From a virus, in the IMG/VR virus record IMGVR_UViG_3300004282_000005, positions 1 to 35,589 of that record: a DNA stretch of 35,589 nt. The stretch is one strand, 5' to 3'. A program made the position numbers and the translations under genes. Below the pieces are notes generated by a model. That model searched no databases. It was not told the origin of the DNA and was given only the letters and a program-made list of their open reading frames with translations. Position 1 is the first letter of the stretch, and each line of letters begins with the position of its first letter. Of this stretch, positions 10,426-32,623 are shown piece after piece.

Positions 10426-12761
10426 TACACCTTGGTTTTTGGTTTATTTTTCTCAACCTCTTTATTATGTCTAGTAGCTTCCTCTTCCTTTGCCATATTA
10501 ACACGCTTATTCTCAGCTATCTTCTCTTTTTCCAAAGCAATCTTATTCTCATGTTCTTGTATCTTTAACATAAGATCTTGCTCTCCACCTTTAGATTCAT
10601 TCTGAAGTACAGCTATCTGCCATTGCATATCAACCTCATACTTCTTCATCTCCCTATCTAATTCTTTTTGCTGAGCCTCATTCTGCATAATCTGATTCTG
10701 TAATGCGAGTTTCTTTTCCTCCATTGCATTAGCACTCTCAGCTTGCTGATCTTCAGCTTCTTCTAATATACGTGTCATTTCGGCAATACTCTCTGACTTA
10801 ATAGCATTAACCAACACGGAAGCAGAAGAACCATTCTGTACCATAGACTGAGCTAAGCTCTCTATAGTCTGACGTATCTTCATATCATCCTGTGTGGAAC
10901 TAACAAATATATCAAAATCTGTATATACAAGATCATCTCCATCAAAATCCAATAATACCCTAGACATATCATCTAGAACAAAATCAGCCTTGACATTCTT
11001 ACCCTTGTATATTTGCTTGGCTATATCGACACATGCCTGTAGAACTCTACGTTTAGTGTCTTCGTGAATAGTAAACCACCTCTCTGTGATATGTGACGAC
11101 TGTGTTACAGCTCTTTCTATACCACCTTTAGTTTCTCTATTCTCTATATTACCTTCTCTTTGCTTTGTAACCCCAGCAATAGTACCCAATTGTGTCTCTA
11201 TATACTGCAACATAGCAATATTCTGTTGTATAAAGTTGCCTATCTCAGGACTTATGGCCTTATTGGTAGTGTTAAAACTACCAGCTAATTTACCAGTTGC
11301 GGCTCCTTTCTTACCCTCATTCCATGGGTCTATAACCATATAACCCAACACATGCATGTAATACATCCACTTATCAAGTTCCCAATCATCTGGTATCTTA
11401 GATGTATCTATCTCTATTATAGGGCCACCAAACCTAGCACATAATAGCTCAAGCCTTCGCATGTACACATTATATGCAAATTGGAATGGTTTCATTCTAC
11501 TCATCATGGATATACCACAATCAGTACCTATAAAGCCAAGATCGCACTTAGACTTATTATTAATATATCTACGTTGATATTTACGTGGACCATACTTAAC
11601 ATATATCCTACCAGCAAGTTTAACACCTTCATATGCTTCATTAATCCATTTCCATTTAATAGTCTCTCCATTCTCAGGATTAACCTTATAATTCTCAGAA
11701 ACCCATTTTACTTGTTCATCACCAAACTCATCAAAATAGGTTAACTTACCTACTTTTCTCCTACCTCTCCAACGCGTACGAACGGTACGAACATTACCCT
11801 TATCATCAAATGGGCCAACATATCCATAGTTAGACATCTCATTGTCAACCTCAAGTAACCTAGGATCATCATCAGATAGATTGACAGGAAAGTAAAGTCT
11901 AGGATTGACATAGTTATAATTAAGAACACCCTCGTCCCTTTTTACGGCTATACCCCCCTCTAAGTACTTAATATCTTCATCACTAAGATAATCATAGAAC
12001 TCATCTATCAACTTACCAACAGGCTGATAATGTATCTGTATGATAATATCAGCGTCCTCTATTTTAAAGTCATTTGTATAACCTAGCGTATGTATCTGTC
12101 TTGGATCGCACTTCTCAACAACAACCTCACTGTTTACCTCATCAACTCTATAGATCTCTCTACTGGTGACAAGGTGATCTATCATCCCATCATTGAACTT
12201 TTTCTTTAATACTTGCTCCCTATAAATATAACTAAGCAATCTAGAAGCTGTCAACTCATGTGAGTCTTTCCAGTTATATTTAAGATACTTACCAAGTTTA
12301 GCTATCTTTTTCTTGGCTTCTTCTTCACTATAATTAGGATTAACTAACTCCTGCTCTACAAGTTGCATTATCATCTCCTGTTGCTGATCTTGTTTAGCTG
12401 ATACAGCAGACTCATTAGTACTACGTATCATCCAAGAGTCCTTCCTCATAAACTCCTCTCCAACCAATAAGTCTATCTTGGGAGCACAGATAGGATAATT
12501 CCTTGTCTCTGATGGAAATGTTATACCATCAAGATCCATCGGATTAAACATCTTCTCTAGATCGTCAGGTACAGCAATGCCTTTGTATACATTAAGATTA
12601 GACTCTATATCTATCTGTTTGGTTCTACTAAGACCACTTCTGTAATATAACATTGTCTCACAAGCATCTATACACTTCTTGTAAAATAGGTCACCCTTTT
12701 CTTTTGTTGCGATCTTTTGCTGAGGAAAAAATATTTGATTATATGCGCCAATTATATCCAT
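10425..12761 (-). CDS. Portal protein
   Basis: The protein has 778 residues and forms the dodecameric channel at the capsid vertex in the family. The first 130 residues contain NYPICAPKIDLLVGEEFMRK, the typical early portal segment. Residues ~390-470 have RMKPFQFAYNVYMRRLELL and GGPIIEIDTSKIPDDWEL. Residues ~520-610 form the long helical stem and crown region with NIAMLQYIETQLGTIAGVTK. The final ~110 residues are a Glu/Lys/Gln coiled coil (LALQNQIMQNEAQQKELDRE). It lies directly downstream of TerL, with its own promoter in the 100-base gap, and is followed by the exonuclease. Length and C-terminal coiled coil fit crAss-like portals. Confidence 0.88.
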   Translation of the reverse strand: MDIIGAYNQIFFPQQKIATKEKGDLFYKKCIDACETMLYYRSGLSRTKQIDIESNLNVYKGIAVPDDLEKMFNPMDLDGITFPSETRNYPICAPKIDLLVGEEFMRKDSWMIRSTNESAVSAKQDQQQEMIMQLVEQELVNPNYSEEEAKKKIAKLGKYLKYNWKDSHELTASRLLSYIYREQVLKKKFNDGMIDHLVTSREIYRVDEVNSEVVVEKCDPRQIHTLGYTNDFKIEDADIIIQIHYQPVGKLIDEFYDYLSDEDIKYLEGGIAVKRDEGVLNYNYVNPRLYFPVNLSDDDPRLLEVDNEMSNYGYVGPFDDKGNVRTVRTRWRGRRKVGKLTYFDEFGDEQVKWVSENYKVNPENGETIKWKWINEAYEGVKLAGRIYVKYGPRKYQRRYINNKSKCDLGFIGTDCGISMMSRMKPFQFAYNVYMRRLELLCARFGGPIIEIDTSKIPDDWELDKWMYYMHVLGYMVIDPWNEGKKGAATGKLAGSFNTTNKAISPEIGNFIQQNIAMLQYIETQLGTIAGVTKQREGNIENRETKGGIERAVTQSSHITERWFTIHEDTKRRVLQACVDIAKQIYKGKNVKADFVLDDMSRVLLDFDGDDLVYTDFDIFVSSTQDDMKIRQTIESLAQSMVQNGSSASVLVNAIKSESIAEMTRILEEAEDQQAESANAMEEKKLALQNQIMQNEAQQKELDREMKKYEVDMQWQIAVLQNESKGGEQDLMLKIQEHENKIALEKEKIAENKRVNMAKEEEATRHNKEVEKNKPKTKV

Positions 12762-23715: not shown

Positions 23716-23961
23716 ATGAAAAGACAAGAAGCAATAGAAATATTACTATCAAATAGCAAGAAGCTTTATCAATATAGTAGGGCTGTAGATAAACCTATTA
23801 AATGCTCTATTGAGGGTTTTGCTATATATGTTGATGGATGTGATAATGTAACATTCATATATGGTGCTAGAAGAGGTGATGATGGTCCATGTTTCTATCG
23901 TAATGGTAGGTGGAATATAAGAATAGGGATAGAACTTAATTCTAATATAAAAGTAATATGA
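23716..23961 (+). CDS. Small protein with NIKVI C-terminal peptide (81 aa)
   Basis: The protein has 81 residues: a helical start (KRQEAIEILLSNSKKLYQYS) and a beta-like body (GFAIYVDGCDNVTFIYGARR). It ends IELNSNIKVI, the leftmost member of the group of 14 proteins with this C-terminal peptide. The body resembles none of the others. Its TGA overlaps the next ATG as ATGA. Function unknown. Confidence 0.7.
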   Translation: MKRQEAIEILLSNSKKLYQYSRAVDKPIKCSIEGFAIYVDGCDNVTFIYGARRGDDGPCFYRNGRWNIRIGIELNSNIKVI

Positions 23962-24149
23962 AAAGGTTTATAAAGATATTCTTTGCAATAACACTTATAA
24001 TGTGTGTAATTAGTGTATTGATGTTATTTCCAATATATCTACGTGATATAACAGATAATAATATATTTTTTGGTATTTACTTTGTTTATCTGTTATTATT
24101 CATGAGTGCAATTGTATATTATTTAACAGACAAAAATAATAAATTTTAA
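23958..24149 (+). CDS. Small two-helix membrane protein (63 aa)
   Basis: The protein has 63 residues: a basic start (MKRFIK), a transmembrane segment at ~6-28 (FFAITLIMCVISVLMLFPIY), a short polar loop (RDITDNN) and a second segment at ~37-56 (IYFVYLLLFMSAIVYYL), then a charged tail. It probably sits in the host inner membrane with both ends inside. Translation is coupled to the preceding gene by ATGA. No holin or superinfection-exclusion family is recognisable. Confidence 0.65.
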   Translation: MKRFIKIFFAITLIMCVISVLMLFPIYLRDITDNNIFFGIYFVYLLLFMSAIVYYLTDKNNKF

Positions 24150-24173
24150 TTATTAATTTAAAACTGTGCTACT

Positions 24174-24422
24174 ATGGTAAATCAGACAGTGCCCTATATA
24201 GGGGTACGCAAACAGGTCGTTCTTAGTGCTCCGAAAAGACTCTTTGTTGAGCGCTATTTGACAGCTAAAGGCAAGAGGCTTATTGTTCTTGCAAAGACTC
24301 GCAAGGATAAGGATAGTGTATGGGCTAAGTATGGTAAGAACAGATACCGTAATAACCCTGATGCTATTCCTTGTAGGAATGCTATTGGTGGAGTGTTAAC
24401 TATAACACATTCATTAGAATGA
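24174..24422 (+). CDS. Small basic hypothetical protein (82 aa)
   Basis: The protein has 82 residues with about 19 Lys/Arg. It contains VPYIGVRKQVVLSAPKRLFV and KYGKNRYRNNPDAIPCRNAI. It is more GC-rich than its neighbours, like the gene at 22035, and the two share an A/T leader of the type AATTTAAAAC before the ATG. It overlaps the next gene by ATGA. Nucleic-acid binding is possible from the charge only. Confidence 0.65.
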   Translation: MVNQTVPYIGVRKQVVLSAPKRLFVERYLTAKGKRLIVLAKTRKDKDSVWAKYGKNRYRNNPDAIPCRNAIGGVLTITHSLE

Positions 24423-24637
24423 AACTATACAAGAGTCATATGCGCTTAAAGTGCATAACCAAGAAAGGTAGTGCTGTTGTCAGTGCTTATAATATTGCCC
24501 TTCCTATTGTTATAGATCGTAAGACCTATAATAACCTACTCAAGTGTCACGGTGTTGATGGTGACTTAGAATACGTTAAGAAATATAACATATACATCTT
24601 TACTCAGCATGTGTGTATACAACGGAGTTGTGATTGA
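24419..24637 (+). CDS. Small hypothetical protein (72 aa)
   Basis: The protein has 72 residues, basic, with MRLKCITKKGSAVVSAYNIA and a beta-like remainder (LEYVKKYNIYIFTQHVC). Two further Cys near the end could pair with those earlier. It is coupled to the preceding basic protein by ATGA. The internal Met8 (MRLKCI) matches the start of the beta-barrel-like proteins at 28692 and 29815, so that Met could be the true start. Confidence 0.55.
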   Translation: MKLYKSHMRLKCITKKGSAVVSAYNIALPIVIDRKTYNNLLKCHGVDGDLEYVKKYNIYIFTQHVCIQRSCD

Positions 24638-24674
24638 GACAGTCTCAGACTGGATTGACATAGATAAGAACTAG

Positions 24675-24956
24675 TTATGTTCAAGAAGAGAATATTATTT
24701 AACATATCATTCTACAGAAAAAGGGAAAGCTTCTTTTAAAAGAAATAAAAAAAACACAGAAAAGAGGCATCCTGAGGGTAAGAGAAGGAGGAATAGAGCT
24801 TATTTTAAAAGAAAAACTAATAATCTTCACGATAATTATGTTAAATCTTGTTTAAAAGGAATAAAAGTTATTAATATATCTCCTGAATTAGTAGAAGCAA
24901 AGCGTAATCAATTAAAATTACATAGATATGTCAGAGACAATAATCGAAGTTCGTGA
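24675..24956 (+). pseudogene. Remnant of an HNH-type homing endonuclease (C-terminal part)
   Basis: An open frame of about 93 codons with no start codon encodes basic, Asn/Arg-rich sequence (KRHPEGKRRRNRAYFKRK), then NLHDNYVKSCLKGIKVINIS and PELVEAKRNQLKLHR. The pattern [IV]-x-I-[ST]-P-E-L-[IV]-E-x-K-R-x-Q-L-x-L-x-R following a Y-V-K helix is the usual C-terminal end of zinc-knuckle phage endonuclease-like proteins. The front with the Cys knuckle and catalytic residues is missing, so it looks like a decayed mobile gene. Its end overlaps the start of the next gene. Confidence 0.6.
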
Positions 24957-25110
24957 TTCTTTAGCAAAAGACCTTGACACTATTAGATGTGGTAAAATGA
25001 GCTTTACCATAGCAAAAACTATAGTTAGTCATGCTAATGCTATATTTAAAGCTGAAAATATAGTATTACAAAGGGAGAGAATAGAGGAGAGAGTTGACCG
25101 TATTAAATAG
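24928..25110 (+). CDS. Small helical hypothetical protein (60 aa)
   Basis: The protein has 60 residues, all helical: EVRDSLAKDLDTIRCGKMSF, then IAKTIVSHANAIFKAENIVL. The pattern 'L-x3-I-D-x-L-x-x-G-x-[IM]-x3-x-A-K-x-I' with a second helix of Ala/Ile is a small phage family often near replication or early genes; role unknown. It ends with TAG and is followed by 59 bases without a gene. It lacks the NIKVI peptide. Confidence 0.6.
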   Translation: MSETIIEVRDSLAKDLDTIRCGKMSFTIAKTIVSHANAIFKAENIVLQRERIEERVDRIK

Positions 25111-25169
25111 TCTCCTTCAGGCCTTGAAATGCTTCATGTAAGTCCTGAATTTACTTTAATATTAGATAT

Positions 25170-25355
25170 ATGTATAAGAGAATAAAGCCAATAGTTTATT
25201 CAAGATGTAATGGATGTGTGTTTAGGGTAGGTATTCGCAATACTGATCTTAACCAATGTGTTCGTCCACATACAATTGCCTCTTGTTGTTCAGAGAGTTC
25301 TCATGACTGTATATATATTCTTATGGAGCTCAATAAAAATATTAAAACGATATGA
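25170..25355 (+). CDS. CxxC small protein with NIKTI C-terminal peptide (61 aa)
   Basis: The protein has 61 residues. It begins MYKRIKPIVYSRCNGCVFRV and has further Cys at CVRPHTIASCCSESSHDC. The layout M-x-Y-K-x-I-K, C-x-x-C-V-F, then two to three Cys and a hydrophobic strand (IYILMEL) is shared with the genes at 25352, 25725, 25928, 27328 and 27522, so these are paralogues, probably zinc-binding. It ends MELNKNIKTI. Its TGA overlaps the next ATG. Confidence 0.7.
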   Translation: MYKRIKPIVYSRCNGCVFRVGIRNTDLNQCVRPHTIASCCSESSHDCIYILMELNKNIKTI

Positions 25356-25528
25356 GATACAAAGGGATAAAGCCACAGAAGGTAGGTTTTTGTTATGGGT
25401 GTGTGTTTAATGAAGGTCATTGCTCTAGGTCTTATTTGATTGATGGTGAGTGTGTTATTGGGGGTGATCATAAGTATATCTTTATCAAGATTGACCTTAA
25501 GTTAAATAAATCGGTAAAAGTGATATGA
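25352..25528 (+). CDS. CxxC small protein with SVKVI C-terminal peptide (58 aa)
   Basis: This 58-residue gene lies between two ATGA overlaps and fills the apparent gap at 25356-25524. It starts MRYKGIKPQKVGFCYGCVFN, continues with CSRSYLIDGECVIGG and the strand KYIFIKIDLK, and ends LNKSVKVI. It is the clearest paralogue of the preceding gene: Cys-x-x-Cys plus two later Cys, then an aromatic strand. A zinc-binding fold is inferred. Confidence 0.72.
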   Translation: MRYKGIKPQKVGFCYGCVFNEGHCSRSYLIDGECVIGGDHKYIFIKIDLKLNKSVKVI

Positions 25529-25728
25529 AGATAGGTGATTTAGTTATGTGTATGCATGATGTACCAGTTATAAATGCTATAGCAGGATATACGTATACTG
25601 TGCAAGACACTGCGATGAATGGTGTATTTATTAAAATTAATAAAGATTCTCCATATCTTATTTCTGAGGATTACTTTGTATTAGTAAAGTCTACTATCAC
25701 ATTAAATAAACACACAAGAATAGTATGA
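25525..25728 (+). CDS. Small beta-barrel-like protein with HTRIV C-terminal peptide (67 aa)
   Basis: The protein has 67 residues without the CxxC motif. MKIGDLVMCMHDVPVINAIA, then GYTYTVQDT and YLISEDYFVLVK, reads as a five-strand SH3-like barrel (G-D-x-V ... G-x-x-Y-x-V ... D-x-F). It ends ITLNKHTRIV, the most divergent version of the shared C-terminal peptide (Lys replaced by Arg). It is coupled on both sides by ATGA. Function unknown. Confidence 0.68.
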   Translation: MKIGDLVMCMHDVPVINAIAGYTYTVQDTAMNGVFIKINKDSPYLISEDYFVLVKSTITLNKHTRIV

Positions 25729-25931
25729 AATACAAGCTTATAAAGACTGTGGTTAAGTCTGAATGGAAGAGTACATGTACAGCATGTGTATTTAACATAA
25801 AGGATGATAGTGGCATTCATTGTAAGCGTCCTAGGGACATTACTCAGGACTGTTTTACTCATAAAGGTGGTACTAAGCTTTATCATTTTGTTAGGACATG
25901 TGAATTACATAATAATATTAAGGTAATATGA
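25725..25931 (+). CDS. CxxC small protein with NIKVI C-terminal peptide (68 aa)
   Basis: The protein has 68 residues. It starts MKYKLIKTVVKSEWKSTCTA, with the CTACVF pair, then HCKRPRDITQDC and a hydrophobic strand (LYHFVRTCEL). It ends HNNIKVI. It belongs to the CxxC paralogue group with a slightly longer first loop. Both gene ends use ATGA overlaps. Confidence 0.7.
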   Translation: MKYKLIKTVVKSEWKSTCTACVFNIKDDSGIHCKRPRDITQDCFTHKGGTKLYHFVRTCELHNNIKVI

Positions 25932-26125
25932 AATATAGACGTATTGAAAGACCCGATAATAATGCGTGTTTTCATTGTATCTTTGGTGTTGGAGATTATG
26001 ATACAGGATGTTATAGACATGCTAGTAAAGCTGCAAATAAAGGTGATAGTTGTATGGAGGATGGTATTTGGAAATATATATTTGTTCACATTAAAGAATT
26101 ATCATCTAATATTAAGGTAGTATGA
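25928..26125 (+). CDS. CxxC small protein with NIKVV C-terminal peptide (65 aa)
   Basis: The protein has 65 residues. MKYRRIERPDNNACFHCIFG gives the CxxC pair; GCYRHASKAANKGDSC gives the later Cys; the final strand is WKYIFVHIKEL, and it ends SSNIKVV. The His next to the Cys pair may also bind metal. It is a member of the same paralogue group, coupled on both sides by ATGA. Confidence 0.7.
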   Translation: MKYRRIERPDNNACFHCIFGVGDYDTGCYRHASKAANKGDSCMEDGIWKYIFVHIKELSSNIKVV

Positions 26126-26382
26126 GGATAGGACAGAGAATAAAATACATAAAGGAAGATAATGCCACTTTTAAAAAAGGTAAGTACTATCATATCAGTG
26201 GTATACATAAATGTCCTTGTCCACATCAAGAGTTCTTAATATCATTACATGAGTTGGATAATGATCATGACTATACAGTGTGTTCTGATCCTAACTGTAA
26301 GGTACACTATAAAGGAAAATACTATAACCCTAATATATTTGAGACAACTGACAATTTGTTTAAACACATTAAAACAATATAA
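26122..26382 (+). CDS. Small protein with HIKTI C-terminal peptide (86 aa)
   Basis: The protein has 86 residues. The start MRIGQRIKYIKEDNATFKKG, then KYYHISGI, is barrel-like. The middle has CPCPHQEF and CSDPNCKVHYKG, four Cys and several His that could bind zinc, so it mixes features of both subgroups. It ends DNLFKHIKTI, but with TAA and two bases before the next ATG. This is the only member whose final residues are not tied to an ATGA overlap, which argues that the peptide itself is conserved. Confidence 0.68.
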   Translation: MRIGQRIKYIKEDNATFKKGKYYHISGIHKCPCPHQEFLISLHELDNDHDYTVCSDPNCKVHYKGKYYNPNIFETTDNLFKHIKTI

Positions 26383-26384
26383 TT

Positions 26385-26480
26385 ATGGATAATATGGAAG
26401 GATGTCGTAACCTAATGCGTATAATAACAGCTTGGCTTATTATTATGACCGCATTAATAATACTATTATGGCCATGCTAA
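26385..26480 (+). CDS. Membrane micropeptide (31 aa)
   Basis: The 31-residue ORF gives a short polar start (MDNMEGCRNLMR) and one hydrophobic helix (IITAWLIIMTALIILLWPC). It starts two bases after the previous stop and overlaps the next small membrane gene. It is one of four or five tiny membrane ORFs in a row between 26385 and 27092. No family recognised. Confidence 0.5.
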   Translation: MDNMEGCRNLMRIITAWLIIMTALIILLWPC

Positions 26481-26644
26481 AACTAAGACTTATGTTCGTA
26501 TCGTTGGTGATATTCATATTAGCTATCCCACCGATGATAAGTTATCTTACAAGTAACTTATTGTATCTCTTACTGTACATCTTCTGTGTACCTATATGTA
26601 TTGGATTATTAGTTATTTACCTAATAGATAAGCATCATGAGTAA
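26468..26644 (+). CDS. Small two-helix membrane protein (58 aa)
   Basis: The start is taken at the ATG at 26468, giving MAMLKLRLMFVSLVIFILAI; a TTG at 26432 would add 12 residues inside the preceding ORF, and an ATG at 26474 would remove two. There are two hydrophobic segments (~9-25 and ~31-53) and a charged end (DKHHE). The gene overlaps both neighbours by a few bases. No known family. Confidence 0.55.
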   Translation: MAMLKLRLMFVSLVIFILAIPPMISYLTSNLLYLLLYIFCVPICIGLLVIYLIDKHHE

Positions 26645-26816
26645 TTCAGGAGGTATAGGTTTTGCATCGCTATTAACAATAGCGTTTGTAGTGCTTAAAC
26701 TATGTCATGTTATATATTGGCATTGGATATGGATCATATCACCTATATGGATTGATATATCATTGGCTATTATTGTATTATCTATTATGTGGTTATATGG
26801 AAAAAGAAGATCGTAA
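26637..26816 (+). CDS. Small membrane protein, GxxGFxxLLT family (59 aa)
   Basis: The protein has 59 residues: GGIGFASLLTIAFVVLKLCH, then WHWIWIISPIWIDISLAIIV. The pattern G-I-G-F-x-x-L-L-T-I-x-F-x-V-L-K-L, then a Trp-rich turn and S-P-I-W-I, is a very common tiny two-helix protein of phages and prophages whose function is unknown. It starts inside the previous gene's last codons and its tail contains the ATG of the next micropeptide. Confidence 0.7.
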   Translation: MSNSGGIGFASLLTIAFVVLKLCHVIYWHWIWIISPIWIDISLAIIVLSIMWLYGKRRS

Positions 26817-26880
26817 TCGCGTTATAATACTAGGTATTATTGTGATATTATTATTATTTATCTTAGGCTTATTATCATGA
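26797..26880 (+). CDS. Membrane micropeptide (27 aa)
   Basis: The ORF encodes a charged start (MEKEDRNR) followed by a single hydrophobic helix (VIILGIIVILLLFILGLLS). It overlaps the previous ORF by 20 bases and the next by ATGA. Its composition and exact coupling support translation, though at this length chance cannot be excluded. Confidence 0.5.
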   Translation: MEKEDRNRVIILGIIVILLLFILGLLS

Positions 26881-27092
26881 AAAAGAAAAAAAGTAATATG
26901 AATATAAATCAGAACTTCTGGTATTATGTCCCTATAATAGGGATATTCTATTGGTTAACAGAAATGTACGATGATAATCCATTAAGAGATAGCCCTATTG
27001 TCGGTTTCAATGCCATGTCCTTTATGTGCCAGATTATTGGCATTGCGTTATTATTATGGTGGTCTGGTATATTTGATACAACATTATTATGA
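26877..27092 (+). CDS. Small membrane protein (71 aa)
   Basis: The protein has 71 residues: a lysine-rich start (MKKKKSNMN), then an amphipathic aromatic stretch (FWYYVPIIGIFYWLTEMYDD), a polar linker (NPLRDSPIVGFNA) and a transmembrane helix (FMCQIIGIALLLWWSGIF). It is the largest of the membrane cluster and appears to anchor in the inner membrane. It overlaps its neighbours by ATGA (start) and a few bases (end). Not assigned to a family. Confidence 0.62.
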   Translation: MKKKKSNMNINQNFWYYVPIIGIFYWLTEMYDDNPLRDSPIVGFNAMSFMCQIIGIALLLWWSGIFDTTLL

Positions 27093-27193
27093 ATGAAGAA
27101 ATATTAGCTGAATGTATTGCCAAGCAAGATATTCAGGATGATCATGAGTTCTTACTCTGTGAGAACCTTGCTATATTAAATAGTCTTAACTAA
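27089..27193 (+). CDS. Acidic micropeptide (34 aa)
   Basis: The 34-residue ORF is soluble and acidic (MNEEILAECIAKQDIQDDHE, then FLLCENLAILNSLN). It is coupled to the membrane gene by overlap and is the last ORF before a structured intergenic RNA. Its final codons include the bases TAGTCTTAAC, which resemble the virion promoter element but lie in a coding context. Confidence 0.5.
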   Translation: MNEEILAECIAKQDIQDDHEFLLCENLAILNSLN

Positions 27194-27195
27194 TA

Positions 27196-27327
27196 ATTGG
27201 TAGGGGAAGCGCCTACTTTTAATTGTACAGACAGAGATAACTCTATAAGCTTATCTGGTTAGTCCCCGTACCTATACGGGGGAGCTAGTTATTTGATAAC
27301 TTAACAGGCGTAAAAATCGTGCGAGCT
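27196..27327 (+). ncRNA. Structured intergenic RNA, four hairpins
   Basis: The 134-base gap holds four consecutive hairpins: GTAGG/CCTAC (27200-27216), AGATAA/TTATCT (27235-27256), CCCCGTA/TACGGGG with loop CCTA (27264-27281) and AGTTAT/ATAACT with a 3-base loop (27287-27301). The third is GC-rich and strong but has no T run behind it. The sequence is GC-richer than its neighbours. It could be the 5' leader of the next operon or a free small RNA. It lacks a tRNA T-loop. Plus strand is assumed from the flanking genes. Confidence 0.5.
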
Positions 27328-27525
27328 ATGAAACATAAAAAATTTAAAAGAATAGATTCACCTAATGTTGGATTATGTTTTGGATGTGTCATATATAGGG
27401 ATAATCTATTTGTTGATAATGGTAGTTGTGCTAATGTGCATCATAGCACCTGTCGTGATGATGGCAAATCTTATGTGTTTGTCTATGATGATATAGAACT
27501 AAATAAAAATACTAAGGTAGTATGA
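27328..27525 (+). CDS. CxxC small protein with NTKVV C-terminal peptide (65 aa)
   Basis: The start is the ATG at 27328; a GTG nine bases upstream is possible but less likely. The protein begins MKHKKFKRIDSPNVGLCFGC, has CANVHHSTCRDDG, a strand YVFVYDDIEL and ends NKNTKVV. It is a member of the CxxC paralogue group restarting after the membrane-gene cluster and the structured RNA. Its TGA overlaps the next ATG. Confidence 0.7.
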   Translation: MKHKKFKRIDSPNVGLCFGCVIYRDNLFVDNGSCANVHHSTCRDDGKSYVFVYDDIELNKNTKVV

Positions 27526-27689
27526 AGTATAGACTAGTAAAGGTTAATTATGATGATATTGGACATACATCTCTGTGTGCTATTTGTGCATTTGAGAAAC
27601 TAGATATTAATGAATGTTTAAAATGGCATAAGCCTGATCATTATTACGTAAAACTATGTGTTATGCCTAAAAATATTAAAGTAGTATGA
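27522..27689 (+). CDS. CxxC small protein with NIKVV C-terminal peptide (55 aa)
   Basis: This 55-residue gene between two ATGA overlaps starts MKYRLVKVNYDDIGHTSLCA, with the pair CAIC, and continues AFEKLDINECLKWHKPDHYY and VKLCVMPKNIKVV. Two later Cys complete the four seen in its relatives. The Leu that usually precedes the C-terminal peptide is Met here. Probably zinc-binding; role unknown. Confidence 0.7.
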   Translation: MKYRLVKVNYDDIGHTSLCAICAFEKLDINECLKWHKPDHYYVKLCVMPKNIKVV

Positions 27690-27904
27690 AATATAAAGTA
27701 GGTGATAAGGTAAAAATGACACAAAGACTTAATGGACATGGTATTCCAATTGGTCATTACGCTATAATAACTAGAGTACAAAAATCAGACCAAGAAAATT
27801 ATTTTTATGAAGGCAAGGAAGTGGATCAACGTTTAATATGGGCATTTGATGATAATGAATGTAAAAGTGTGATTAAAATATCTAATAATATTAAAACTAT
27901 ATGA
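27686..27904 (+). CDS. Small beta-barrel-like protein with NIKTI C-terminal peptide (72 aa)
   Basis: The protein has 72 residues: MKYKVGDKVKMTQRLNGHGI, then HYAIITRVQ and QRLIWAFDD, a KOW/SH3-like barrel opening (V-G-D-x-V-x-[MI]). It ends IKISNNIKTI. Although its first residues MKYK match the CxxC group, the body is of the barrel type, so the two subgroups share both ends but not the middle. Coupled by ATGA on both sides. Confidence 0.7.
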   Translation: MKYKVGDKVKMTQRLNGHGIPIGHYAIITRVQKSDQENYFYEGKEVDQRLIWAFDDNECKSVIKISNNIKTI

Positions 27905-28095
27905 GACGTACGTTAGAAGCAATAAGAGAGATAGCTGATAAGACTGTCAGTGATGAAGAATTGGGTGTTATGGTAAGAGATTATCTTAAAGATGGTCATC
28001 CTAATAGCTTTATTAAGTGTTTTCATTGTGGTACATACATACCTGATTTTTATTCTAGATGTAGACATTGTAAAAAGTCTTTGGATGATGAATAA
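27901..28095 (+). CDS. Zinc-ribbon protein with N-terminal helices (64 aa)
   Basis: The protein has 64 residues. Two helices (RRTLEAIREIADKTVSDEEL) are followed by CFHCGTYIPDFYSRCRHCKK, a standard CxxC-x10-CxxC zinc ribbon, and an acidic end. It does not carry the NIKVI peptide. Its reading frame ends eight bases into the next gene. A DNA- or protein-binding adaptor role is plausible. Confidence 0.68.
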   Translation: MRRTLEAIREIADKTVSDEELGVMVRDYLKDGHPNSFIKCFHCGTYIPDFYSRCRHCKKSLDDE

Positions 28096-28324
28096 GAAAG
28101 TAAAATGCAAGAAGGATTTTCTTTATGGCGATGTCTATGTTTTATTTAGAAAGAATAAAATATACGATCTGAAATGGCAAGGAATATCAAGTGTAAATAT
28201 TACGAGAGAACTAGTGGGAGGAGAATCTAAAGAAAGTATGTATTCTTTCTCTATTACAAATAAAGAATATAAAGAATACTTTTATAAATCTATTGCTTTG
28301 TCTAAAAACATAAAGACTATATGA
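28088..28324 (+). CDS. Small barrel-like protein with NIKTI C-terminal peptide (78 aa)
   Basis: The start is the ATG at 28088, one codon after another ATG (28085); a longer frame from 27992 would lie wholly over the zinc-ribbon gene and is rejected. The protein begins MNKKVKCKKDFLYGDVYVLF and continues RKNKIYDLKWQGI, a K-V-K-C-x-K-D ... F-x-K-x-K-I-Y-D pattern seen in small phage barrel proteins. It ends IALSKNIKTI and overlaps the next ATG by ATGA. Confidence 0.68.
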   Translation: MNKKVKCKKDFLYGDVYVLFRKNKIYDLKWQGISSVNITRELVGGESKESMYSFSITNKEYKEYFYKSIALSKNIKTI

Positions 28325-28587
28325 GTGATTTTGTAAATACTAAACATGAGGTAATAGTAAAATGTAGTGACTATCTACCTAAAGAGAGTGGTGATTATGA
28401 AACTAACCTTGGTGTTCTTCATTTTGTTAGAAGAGCATATTCAACAAGAGCTAGTAACTATGTAGAGTTAAAATGGTACAAGAAAGTTATTATCTGTGAT
28501 ATATGTACATATAATCTAATTAAACCCCAATGGTGGAAAGAAAAAGAAGAACCCCCGATAAGCGTATCATCATCACCAAGTCAATAG
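28321..28587 (+). CDS. Small hypothetical protein without the shared peptide (88 aa)
   Basis: The protein has 88 residues: HEVIVKCSDYLPKESGDYET, then LHFVRRAYSTRASN and KKVIICDICTYNLIKPQWW. A single CDIC pair is present. 'Y-x-P-x-x-S-G-D-Y-x-T' followed by W/Y-rich strands recalls small phage proteins of unknown function. The C terminus is Ser/Pro-rich and overlaps the next ORF by 58 bases in another frame. Confidence 0.6.
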   Translation: MSDFVNTKHEVIVKCSDYLPKESGDYETNLGVLHFVRRAYSTRASNYVELKWYKKVIICDICTYNLIKPQWWKEKEEPPISVSSSPSQ

Positions 28588-28676
28588 TGATAATAGAATA
28601 CAAGAGTGGTCATGATCTTGTTATTGCGAGACATGATGACAGAGCTAAAGCAATAATCAAAACTGTATCTTTTTAA
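28530..28676 (+). CDS. Small basic protein (48 aa)
   Basis: The 48-residue ORF starts inside the previous gene. It begins with a basic patch (MVERKRRTPDKRIIITKSIV) and continues with a strand/helix (IIEYKSGHDLVIARHDD). It ends 15 bases before the next gene and accounts for the otherwise empty gap 28588-28676, which supports it. Not recognised. Confidence 0.5.
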   Translation: MVERKRRTPDKRIIITKSIVIIEYKSGHDLVIARHDDRAKAIIKTVSF

Positions 28677-28691
28677 CTTAAATCAATCTAT

Positions 28692-29261
28692 ATGAAACTG
28701 AAGTGTATTAACAAACCAACAAAGTTCAAGAATCTATCCCTTAATAATGAATATGAGGGTATTATTGATGGTGATAACTATGTAGTCACTAATGATAGTG
28801 GCTTACGTGCCAAGTATGCATCAAAGTATTTTAATGTTGTACCTACAGAAGTGCCATTATTGAGTGCTGTATCTAGTCTTAGTTTTGATCTTGATGGCGA
28901 AGATCTACAAATCTTCTGCAATGATGAGGATCAAACAATCACTTTATCTCAAGCAAGTAATTCTTGTGGTATATATGATGTTGATGGTCTTGGTGGTATT
29001 ATTAGTTTAGTCGAGGATATACATACTAATCTTTCACCAAACGTAGTTGGTACTCGACTTGATCTATTCAGACATATTATTACATCATTAGTGGCATATA
29101 TCAAGACACAACGTAATCTTGCATTCATTACCTTCAGTGATAATCTCAATAATGCTGAAGAGATGCCATATAAGGATGTTATGAATGAGATGGCTGTTAC
29201 CTTTGCTGAAGGTGTCAATCGTAACTCTAGTAACACTATACGTCTTTGGATATTTAACTAA
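28692..29261 (+). CDS. Two-domain protein: barrel-like N terminus fused to a helical domain (189 aa)
   Basis: The protein has 189 residues. Residues 1-52 (KLKCINKPTKFKNLSLNNEY, then GIIDGDNYVVTND and YFNVVPTEVP) follow the same small-barrel pattern as 29424-30018. Residues ~55-189 are a separate domain: acidic, with GGIISLVEDIHTNLSPNVVG and LFRHIITSLVAYIKTQRNLA. It lacks the NIKVI peptide; instead the barrel is extended by the second domain. It is followed by RNA structure and a tRNA-like gene. Function unknown. Confidence 0.65.
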   Translation: MKLKCINKPTKFKNLSLNNEYEGIIDGDNYVVTNDSGLRAKYASKYFNVVPTEVPLLSAVSSLSFDLDGEDLQIFCNDEDQTITLSQASNSCGIYDVDGLGGIISLVEDIHTNLSPNVVGTRLDLFRHIITSLVAYIKTQRNLAFITFSDNLNNAEEMPYKDVMNEMAVTFAEGVNRNSSNTIRLWIFN

Positions 29262-29266
29262 GATCC

Positions 29267-29316
29267 TCCTGTACCCTTGAAAAACTCGGATTAGTTCAGC
29301 AGGAATTAAAAGGGTA
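29267..29316 (+). other. Possible RNA pseudoknot before the tRNA-like gene
   Basis: TCCTG (29267-29271) can pair with CAGGA (29300-29304), and TACCCTT (29272-29278) with AAGGGTA (29310-29316). The two pairings cross, so both together would make a pseudoknot with a 21-base connector between them. Each stem is short enough to occur by chance. It lies between the stop at 29261 and the tRNA-like gene. Confidence 0.3.
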
Positions 29317-29329
29317 GAAAATGGTGGTG

Positions 29330-29400
29330 TCCCTTGTAGCTTAATTGGTAGAGCCTTGGATTGTATCAAGAGGTTGTGAGTTCGAGTCTCACCTTGGGAT
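29330..29400 (+). tRNA. Atypical tRNA-like gene, anticodon uncertain
   Basis: The D arm (TAGCTTAATTGGTAGAGC) and the T arm (GTGAG, TTCGAGT, CTCAC at 29376-29392) are textbook. The anticodon stem CTTGG/TCAAG leaves a loop of only six bases (ATTGTA), so the anticodon cannot be read safely; GTA (Tyr) is one option. The acceptor stem TCCCTTG/CTTGGGA has two T-T mismatches, and no CCA is encoded. It may be a decaying tRNA, a tRNA mimic, or a tRNA interrupted or shortened by deletion in the anticodon loop. Confidence 0.55.
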
Positions 29401-29423
29401 CTAATATAAATAATAATCACATA

Positions 29424-29618
29424 ATGAGAAAAATATTATGTATAAATGATGTTAACTGTGCCCTTATTAAAAAGGGAGAGATATATGATGGATATCCATT
29501 ATTTAGCGAAAACCAAACATTAATAGGGTGGAATATACCTGGTAAATATCATAAATACCCTGTTAAATGTTGTGAATTAGTTGCTAAAACTTTGAGTAAA
29601 AATATTAAGACAATATGA
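29424..29618 (+). CDS. Small barrel-like protein with NIKTI C-terminal peptide (64 aa)
   Basis: The ATG at 29424 is the start; a longer frame from 29361 runs through the tRNA-like gene and is rejected. The protein reads MRKILCINDVNCALIKKGEI, then YDGYPLF and KYPVKCCELVAK, the phage barrel pattern K-[IV]-x-C-I-[ND] ... K-G-x-I-Y-x-G. It ends TLSKNIKTI. It is the first of three tandem paralogues up to 30018, coupled by ATGA. Confidence 0.7.
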   Translation: MRKILCINDVNCALIKKGEIYDGYPLFSENQTLIGWNIPGKYHKYPVKCCELVAKTLSKNIKTI

Positions 29619-29818
29619 AAGTAATATGTATTGATGATACTCCAGTGGCTGGTTCTAAACATAAGTTAGTAAAAGGACATATATATGAAGGTGAGATTTT
29701 AAGATATTATGCAGGTGAGGATAGATAGGAGATAGAAGGACATACTGGATGTGTATATTTCTTCCATAGGTTTAAAAAACATCCTAATAATCTTTCTAAA
29801 AACATTAAAGTGATATGA
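29615..29818 (+). pseudogene. Barrel-like NIKVI protein interrupted by an in-frame TAG
   Basis: The frame begins MKVICIDDTPVAGSKHKLVK and continues GHIYEGEILRYYAGEDR. A TAG follows at 29726-29728 (codon 38), then the same frame goes on EIEGHTGCVYFFHRFKKHPN and NLSKNIKVI to a normal TGA. Aligned with the paralogue at 29815, the TAG falls at a Tyr, so one base change would explain it. The downstream half keeps the C-terminal peptide and the ATGA coupling, so the break is recent or the TAG is read through. A 37-residue truncated product is also possible. Confidence 0.75.
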
Positions 29819-30018
29819 GACTAAAGCTTTTGTGTATTGACAATAAGGGGACAGAAAATTTTTTTATTCCATTAATAATAGGCAATACATACCATGGGAA
29901 ACTAGTACCATACGGTAGTCAAAAGAGATATCAGATAGAAAATCATAGTCGCTATCTTTATCACTTAGAAAGGTTTAAAATAATGAGAGACTTATCTAAA
30001 AATATTAAAGTTATATGA
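29815..30018 (+). CDS. Small barrel-like protein with NIKVI C-terminal peptide (67 aa)
   Basis: The protein has 67 residues: MRLKLLCIDNKGTENFFIPL, then IIGNTYHGKLVPYGSQKRYQ and RYLYHLERFKIMRD, ending LSKNIKVI. It is a paralogue of the two preceding genes (K-x-x-C-I-[DN] start, G-x-x-Y-x-G, and a final [HE]-R-F-K strand) and the last one with the shared C-terminal peptide in the window. Its TGA overlaps the next ATG. Confidence 0.72.
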   Translation: MRLKLLCIDNKGTENFFIPLIIGNTYHGKLVPYGSQKRYQIENHSRYLYHLERFKIMRDLSKNIKVI

Positions 30019-31796: not shown

Positions 31797-31979
31797 ATGA
31801 TAGAAAGCTTTAATTATATAGTAGGCAAATCGCCTGAGAATGCTTGGAGAAGGAATAACCTTCTTGCTGTACATGGCTGTATTGAGACTCCTGATTACTT
31901 TGAGGTAAGATTCAAGTTTGTGGAGTATTATAATAATCGTTCTGTTGAGGTAAATCTCTTATATCAGATAGTTAAATGA
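31797..31979 (+). CDS. Small hypothetical protein (60 aa)
   Basis: The protein has 60 residues: FNYIVGKSPENAWRRNNLLA, then CIETPDYFEVRFKFVEYYNN. It has no recognised family. It is coupled to the amidotransferase by an ATGA overlap, so the two are co-translated and may work together; this is suggestion only. Confidence 0.6.
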   Translation: MIESFNYIVGKSPENAWRRNNLLAVHGCIETPDYFEVRFKFVEYYNNRSVEVNLLYQIVK

Positions 31980-32623
31980 TAATAGGAATACCTGGATGGA
32001 ACATGGGGCCCAATTCATTTGGGATTGGGCTCACATACCTCGAGTTTTTACAAGAGGTGTTATACAGTAGTGATATAAGGATACTATTACCAAATACTCC
32101 TGTGTTGACTGATCTTGACCTATTAGTATTACCTGGTGGTGCTGACATCAATCCTAGTAGGTATGGTGAGCCACCTGGATTCTATACTGACAAGCCTGAT
32201 CTGATAAAGGAATACTTTGATGTATTCATGCTACCACAGTATATTGAGCAACGAACACCTATATTAGGTATATGTCGTGGATGTCAGGCTATTGCTGTGG
32301 CATTTGGTGGTAAGCTAATACAGAACATGTATCATGAGACTAATAAGGCTGATGATCCCTATAGTGGTGTTCATAATATCACTGTTGCTGATAAATCTAA
32401 GAAGATAAAGGTTAATAGTAGACATCATCAGTCTATACGACCACCAAATGATGATAGCCCTATAAAAGTGATAGCTACACACAGTAATAATAACTATCAT
32501 GTAGAGGCCATTAAAATACAAGATTATCCTATTACAGGTGTACAATGGCATCCTGAGGATCTTATTGAGGATTCAGGTGTCAATTATGTATGTCAATTAG
32601 TAAATAACATAATTAAAAAATAA
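31976..32623 (+). CDS. Class I glutamine amidotransferase, peptidase C26 (PuuD-like)
   Basis: The protein has 215 residues, a stand-alone class I amidotransferase fold. Motifs: DLLVLPGGADINPSRYG (~48-64), the nucleophile elbow ILGICRGCQAIAVAFGG with Cys100, the family phrase VNSRHHQSI (~147-154) and GVQWHPED with His192 and Glu194, completing the Cys-His-Glu triad. The HHQS phrase and PGG-DINP start match gamma-glutamyl hydrolases of the PuuD group, which cleave gamma-glutamyl amides, more than amidotransferase subunits of synthetases. It is slightly shorter than the bacterial enzymes (~240-255). The substrate in a phage is unknown; nucleotide or DNA modification, or polyamine metabolism, are possibilities. 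Confidence 0.88.
   Translation: MIIGIPGWNMGPNSFGIGLTYLEFLQEVLYSSDIRILLPNTPVLTDLDLLVLPGGADINPSRYGEPPGFYTDKPDLIKEYFDVFMLPQYIEQRTPILGICRGCQAIAVAFGGKLIQNMYHETNKADDPYSGVHNITVADKSKKIKVNSRHHQSIRPPNDDSPIKVIATHSNNNYHVEAIKIQDYPITGVQWHPEDLIEDSGVNYVCQLVNNIIKK

Follow-up and report, generated by a model that had tools for sequence, protein, structure and literature searches.

The capsid-targeting sequence (CTS) of phage T4 lies at the N terminus of the proteins that carry it. It serves the T4 internal proteins as a common address, so that a set of diverse small phage proteins has only one short terminal peptide in common (PMC3012670). The C-terminal degrons of ClpXP, such as ssrA and the RRKKAI with which MuA ends, are short tags that unrelated proteins carry at their free C-terminus, the MuA end being a degron for ClpX (PMC8138137, PMC5143411). 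In the virion of phiCrAss001, a crassvirus of the same order as the phage studied here, large amounts of cargo protein are stored, and the portion of that report considered here mentions no targeting peptide for the cargo (PMC10172136).

The DNA examined here encodes a set of small proteins that end in one octapeptide, and a literature search for a shared C-terminal tail of this kind found no matching system described. As with the T4 CTS, one short peptide is found on diverse small proteins; unlike the CTS, the tail is C-terminal and occurs in early-region arrays of Crassvirales, and we regard the two as analogous without claiming the octapeptide as a member of the CTS kind. The likeness to the end of MuA lies in basic residues followed by an aliphatic end, although the constraint in the candidate tail, at eight residues, is longer than in the ClpXP degrons. 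Phage early regions are rich in small proteins of unknown role, and a constant tag on changing bodies would provide a handle on this whole class: it predicts class membership from eight residues, and the partner of one peptide, once found, would reveal a common destination for many uncharacterised proteins.

The phage fragment and its tailed genes

The window, i.e., the whole stretch of 35,589 nucleotides that was analysed (IMG/VR record IMGVR_UViG_3300004282_000005), is part of the genome of a divergent crAss-like (Crassvirales) phage. This 35.6-kb record has PHROG matches to head and packaging proteins (E = 1.8e-85, 1.6e-112 and 1e-80), and a crAss-like major capsid protein (MCP), portal and large terminase are all encoded in it. 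The MCP matches those of Steigviridae and of Cellulophaga phage phi14:2 at 34-36%, and capsid and helicase have 33-36% identity with Steigviridae. Late genes occupy the minus strand up to ~21.5 kb, and the early region, in which the tailed genes lie, is on the plus strand from ~22 kb. Reassignment of TAG to glutamine was considered and rejected, as the long frames show no general effect.

All fourteen C-terminal peptides listed in the preliminary description were present as given, that of the frame at 29615 only beyond an in-frame TAG. The features are as follows:

23716-23961, plus strand: tailed gene, body a singleton type; tail LNSNIKVI at 23935-23958
25170-25355, plus strand: tailed gene, four-Cys body; tail LNKNIKTI
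25352-25528, plus strand: tailed gene, four-Cys body; tail LNKSVKVI
25525-25728, plus strand: tailed gene, SH3-like type of body; tail LNKHTRIV
25725-25931, plus strand: tailed gene, four-Cys body; tail LHNNIKVI
25928-26125, plus strand: tailed gene, four-Cys body; tail LSSNIKVV
26122-26382, plus strand: tailed gene, SH3-like type of body; tail LFKHIKTI, TAA stop, no ATGA overlap
27328-27525, plus strand: tailed gene, four-Cys body; tail LNKNTKVV
27522-27689, plus strand: tailed gene, short Cys body; tail MPKNIKVV
27686-27904, plus strand: tailed gene, SH3-like type of body; tail ISNNIKTI
28088-28324, plus strand: tailed gene, SH3-like type of body; tail LSKNIKTI
29330-29401, plus strand: tRNA-like gene directly 5' of the tailed gene at 29424
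29424-29618, plus strand: tailed gene, SH3-like body; tail LSKNIKTI, tRNA gene 22 nt upstream
29615-29818, plus strand: tailed frame with an in-frame TAG, SH3-like body; tail LSKNIKVI
29815-30018, plus strand: tailed gene, SH3-like body; tail LSKNIKVI

Owing to the TAG at 29726-29728, the ORF proper of the 29615 frame has 37 aa, and the tail is intact in the same frame, which stops at 29816-29818. Since reading TAG as glutamine had no general effect on long frames, this TAG appears confined to this site, as either a nonsense change or a case of readthrough. The gene at 28088 is enclosed by a longer ORF (27992-28324), and the ATG at 28088 is the plausible start. That the gene at 26122 keeps the peptide without an ATGA overlap was borne out, the next ORF (31 aa, from 26385) beginning 2 nt past its stop. 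The spacer at 27194-27327 had no unusual structure (z -0.6) and no Rfam match. Also situated among the tailed genes is one for an untailed 189-aa protein (28692-29261). Homologues of this protein occur in L082, L083 and L291, and its N-terminus, MKLKCIN, resembles by eye the SH3-like bodies.

The bodies had been described as unrelated folds; most of those in the window belong to two families, four-Cys and SH3-like, with tandem paralogues among them, and the gene at 23716 represents a third type. The tailed bodies form many clusters and are diverse, with several further types besides the SH3-like barrels and the four-Cys proteins. In the AlphaFold model of the 29815 protein, the body (pLDDT 84, pTM 0.66) is a predicted barrel of five strands. 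The barrel stops short of the tail, which is modelled without structure (pLDDT ~59) and lies outside the folded SH3-like part. Top PDB matches to this model in Foldseek were mostly SH3 or Tudor domains (TM ~0.4-0.6), none with E < 0.001. The model of a four-Cys body was of low confidence, and single-protein searches with the bodies found no strong match in phages, Pfam or PHROGs.

Conservation of the peptide and its codons

The shared tail, with the consensus L-[NS]-K-N-[IV]-[KR]-[VT]-[IV] exactly at the C-terminus of fourteen frames of the window, is real and beyond chance. A comparison of terminal with internal occurrences, proposed earlier for phage proteomes and made here on the window, gave matches to the tail regular expression at 14 of the 5153 stop codons of the window and one internal match in 71,174 six-frame codons, and first-order Markov sequences as long as the window had a mean of 0.08 tail ends (maximum 1). 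In an unbiased comparison of C-terminal octamers, 55 of 2485 pairs in the window were similar (2.2%) versus 65 of 34,562 at other loci (0.19%), and the window genes showed no such sharing in octamers taken from the N-terminus or the middle. Across 25 strict tails, each of positions -8 to -1 carries 2.4-3.3 bits of information, compared with 1.71 bits at -9 and 0.7-1.1 at -10 to -16, the 99.9th percentile of the internal-column null being 1.14.

The codons of the tail vary as had been claimed (pS 0.70, saturated; pN 0.30), and the values are alike within and between genomes (pS 0.65-0.70, pN 0.26-0.31); the seven codons preceding the tail have a pN and a pS of ~0.65 each and show no conservation. 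At -2, 24 of the 25 strict tails have V or T, encoded by GTN or ACN; residue -3 is K or R with five codons in use and exchange of the two via AGA, AGG and CGA. The last residue of the tail is also unshifted where the stop is not TGA (W26122, G2517, Gx3035). Given the saturation of synonymous but not of nonsynonymous sites, and the exchange of V/T and K/R, the peptide appears to be the main target of selection, and the sequences support this both within the window and in a relative's independent array. The contrary outcome, conservation of nucleotides only, is disfavoured by the saturated third positions, but the Lys codon at -6 does not vary. A recombination sequence, which the preliminary description had argued against, is disfavoured because of that same saturation.

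Its further claim, that selection does not act on RNA, stood only in part. The ATGA overlap with the next start is found in 13 of 14 tailed and 6 of 25 untailed genes of the window (p = 4e-5; pooled Fisher p = 4e-6), and the Lys at -6 is AAA in 19/19 tails of the window and of the relative G057 (L292, L301, L302), versus 25:24 before Asn/His elsewhere, for which codon usage gives no explanation. As that association is far from random and the AAA is invariant, some nucleotide-level constraint probably exists too. Same-codon use in the tails is slightly above expectation (p = 0.011).

The tail in related phages

Relatives in IMG/VR were found by alignments of the helicase, the capsid and a single-strand-binding-like protein. 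Two of them (L025 and L026, helicase ~80% identical) have one tailed gene each, just downstream of a tRNA-Met gene. In three phages a tRNA gene precedes a tailed gene by 13-22 nt (29330-29401 in the window, 5483-5556 in L025, 4984-5058 in L026); for the window copy ARAGORN gave no anticodon. A glutamine amidotransferase-like gene (31976-32623 of the window) is also common to L025 and L026, at 61-65% identity. A 63.8-kb record, L292 (G057), has nine tailed genes: an array of six, followed by a primase gene and a seventh, and two more elsewhere. The tail is also found on isolated genes outside arrays. In L199 (helicase 62%), two adjacent genes end in TLHKNIILL and KLNNSIFIL, and the latter directly precedes a homologue (MKK.VTVYGSLLEGFGNW) of the gene that comes after TLNKNVKTI in G057; to judge from these sequences, the L199 ends are probably, if not certainly, a degenerate form of the tail.

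Among the 11,112 ORFs of the loci compared, scores >20 were confined to L025 and L026, L007 being set aside as it had itself been retrieved by the tail pattern. No tail was seen in a same-genus relative (L196, L197), whose 34.8-kb record does not include the early region, or in those relatives whose helicase is 41-46% identical, or at further crAss-like loci; many of these contigs are fragments. Searches with the exact-tail pattern matched 19 stretches in IMG/VR and 91 in GTDB contigs, each stretch only once, and most of the matches inspected lay in another frame or within a short ORF, with no array; a helicase search of GTDB gave no relative. The clade of tail-bearing phages is represented by contig fragments only, and records near the window may lie outside these searches.

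Candidate roles of the tail

Given a constant, unstructured and exactly C-terminal peptide on bodies that vary, the best reading is an address tag bound in trans, and we put at about even the chance that the octapeptide acts in this way on a diversified set of accessory proteins. Small, fast-changing early proteins of different folds would carry a flexible C-terminal extension ending in the octapeptide, one common partner, phage- or host-encoded, would bind it as an extended strand including the free carboxylate, and this partner would bring the whole tailed set to one place, either for docking or for loading into the virion. The binding in trans, the single partner for all tails and the events after binding are what we infer. 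In support of the address tag are the presence of the tail in the window, G057/L292, L025 and L026, and in degenerate form in L199, as well as its sharp 8-residue border, its exact C-terminal position and the diversity of the bodies; counting against it are the ATGA overlap of nearly all tails, which a tag acting in trans does not predict, the apparent nucleotide-level constraint at Lys -6, and the confinement of the tail to one phage clade. A more specific proposal, which we advance tentatively and with less confidence, is a dedicated C-terminal sorting system of a Crassvirales lineage in which one receptor would gather a diversified, array-encoded set of small accessory (perhaps counter-defence) proteins via the octapeptide, for virions or for a host/phage complex.

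Because MuA ends in RRKKAI, the main rival of the address tag is a C-terminal degron, with a host AAA+ protease recognising [KR]-[VT]-[IV]-COOH and quickly removing the early proteins after their action. By analogy with ClpX, whose signals occupy a free C-terminus that is unstructured, the tail would be suitably placed, being exactly terminal and unstructured, with a basic residue before two aliphatic or beta-branched ones, but conservation reaches beyond the last three residues to span eight, with L at -8 and N at -5 among them, and we consider a degron unlikely.

With an ATGA overlap between most tailed genes and the next start, the arrangement resembles that of gene pairs coupled by termination-reinitiation, for which we know of no need for a fixed peptide. 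That the tail is a cis-acting translational device, its codons or the nascent peptide favouring reinitiation at the overlapping start, has in its favour the enrichment of ATGA overlaps, the invariant AAA at -6, and an A-rich stretch at -17 to -13 that fits the A-rich region at translation initiation in Bacteroidota (PMC6847099). Six ATGA pairs of the window nevertheless have no tail, and reinitiation in E. coli needs no more of the upstream gene than its final 15 nt (PMC10666635). Some tailed genes, moreover, have no coupled neighbour: the tailed G057 gene L301:12836-13066:- closes its operon, ending at TAG with no downstream gene and with a stem-loop and T8 (missed by a simple terminator scan that allowed loops of 3-8 only) between it and a convergent 1365-aa gene whose end is 84 nt away, and in another G057 gene (11657-11860 of reverse-complemented L302) the frame that begins at the ATGA is only four codons long. 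Such genes disfavour a pure translation-coupling signal. A general translation-initiation signal was rejected, as tail DNA does not occur ahead of untailed starts; nor is A at -3 and -6 higher than at those starts. Coupling cannot be the whole reason for the tail, and a translational device is improbable as its explanation, although the A-rich codons may serve coupling too.

The least probable reading, that the tail is a functionless relic carried along as [ATG-body-tail] cassettes were duplicated and recombined at their junctions, would account for the tandem paralogues and for the tail and ATGA travelling together, but not for residues that hold while synonymous sites are saturated, a tail that persists where bodies have diverged beyond detection, or its presence on isolated genes. 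The tail probably did spread as arrays grew by duplication and exchanged cassettes, and with the tail restricted to one phage clade, common descent of the array units adds to the similarity.

A separate observation concerns other crAss-like phages (L182, L183, L142 and L175), in which several genes share an N-terminal peptide resembling M-T-x-[QE]-E-[FML]-S-N, possibly a shared N-terminal domain.
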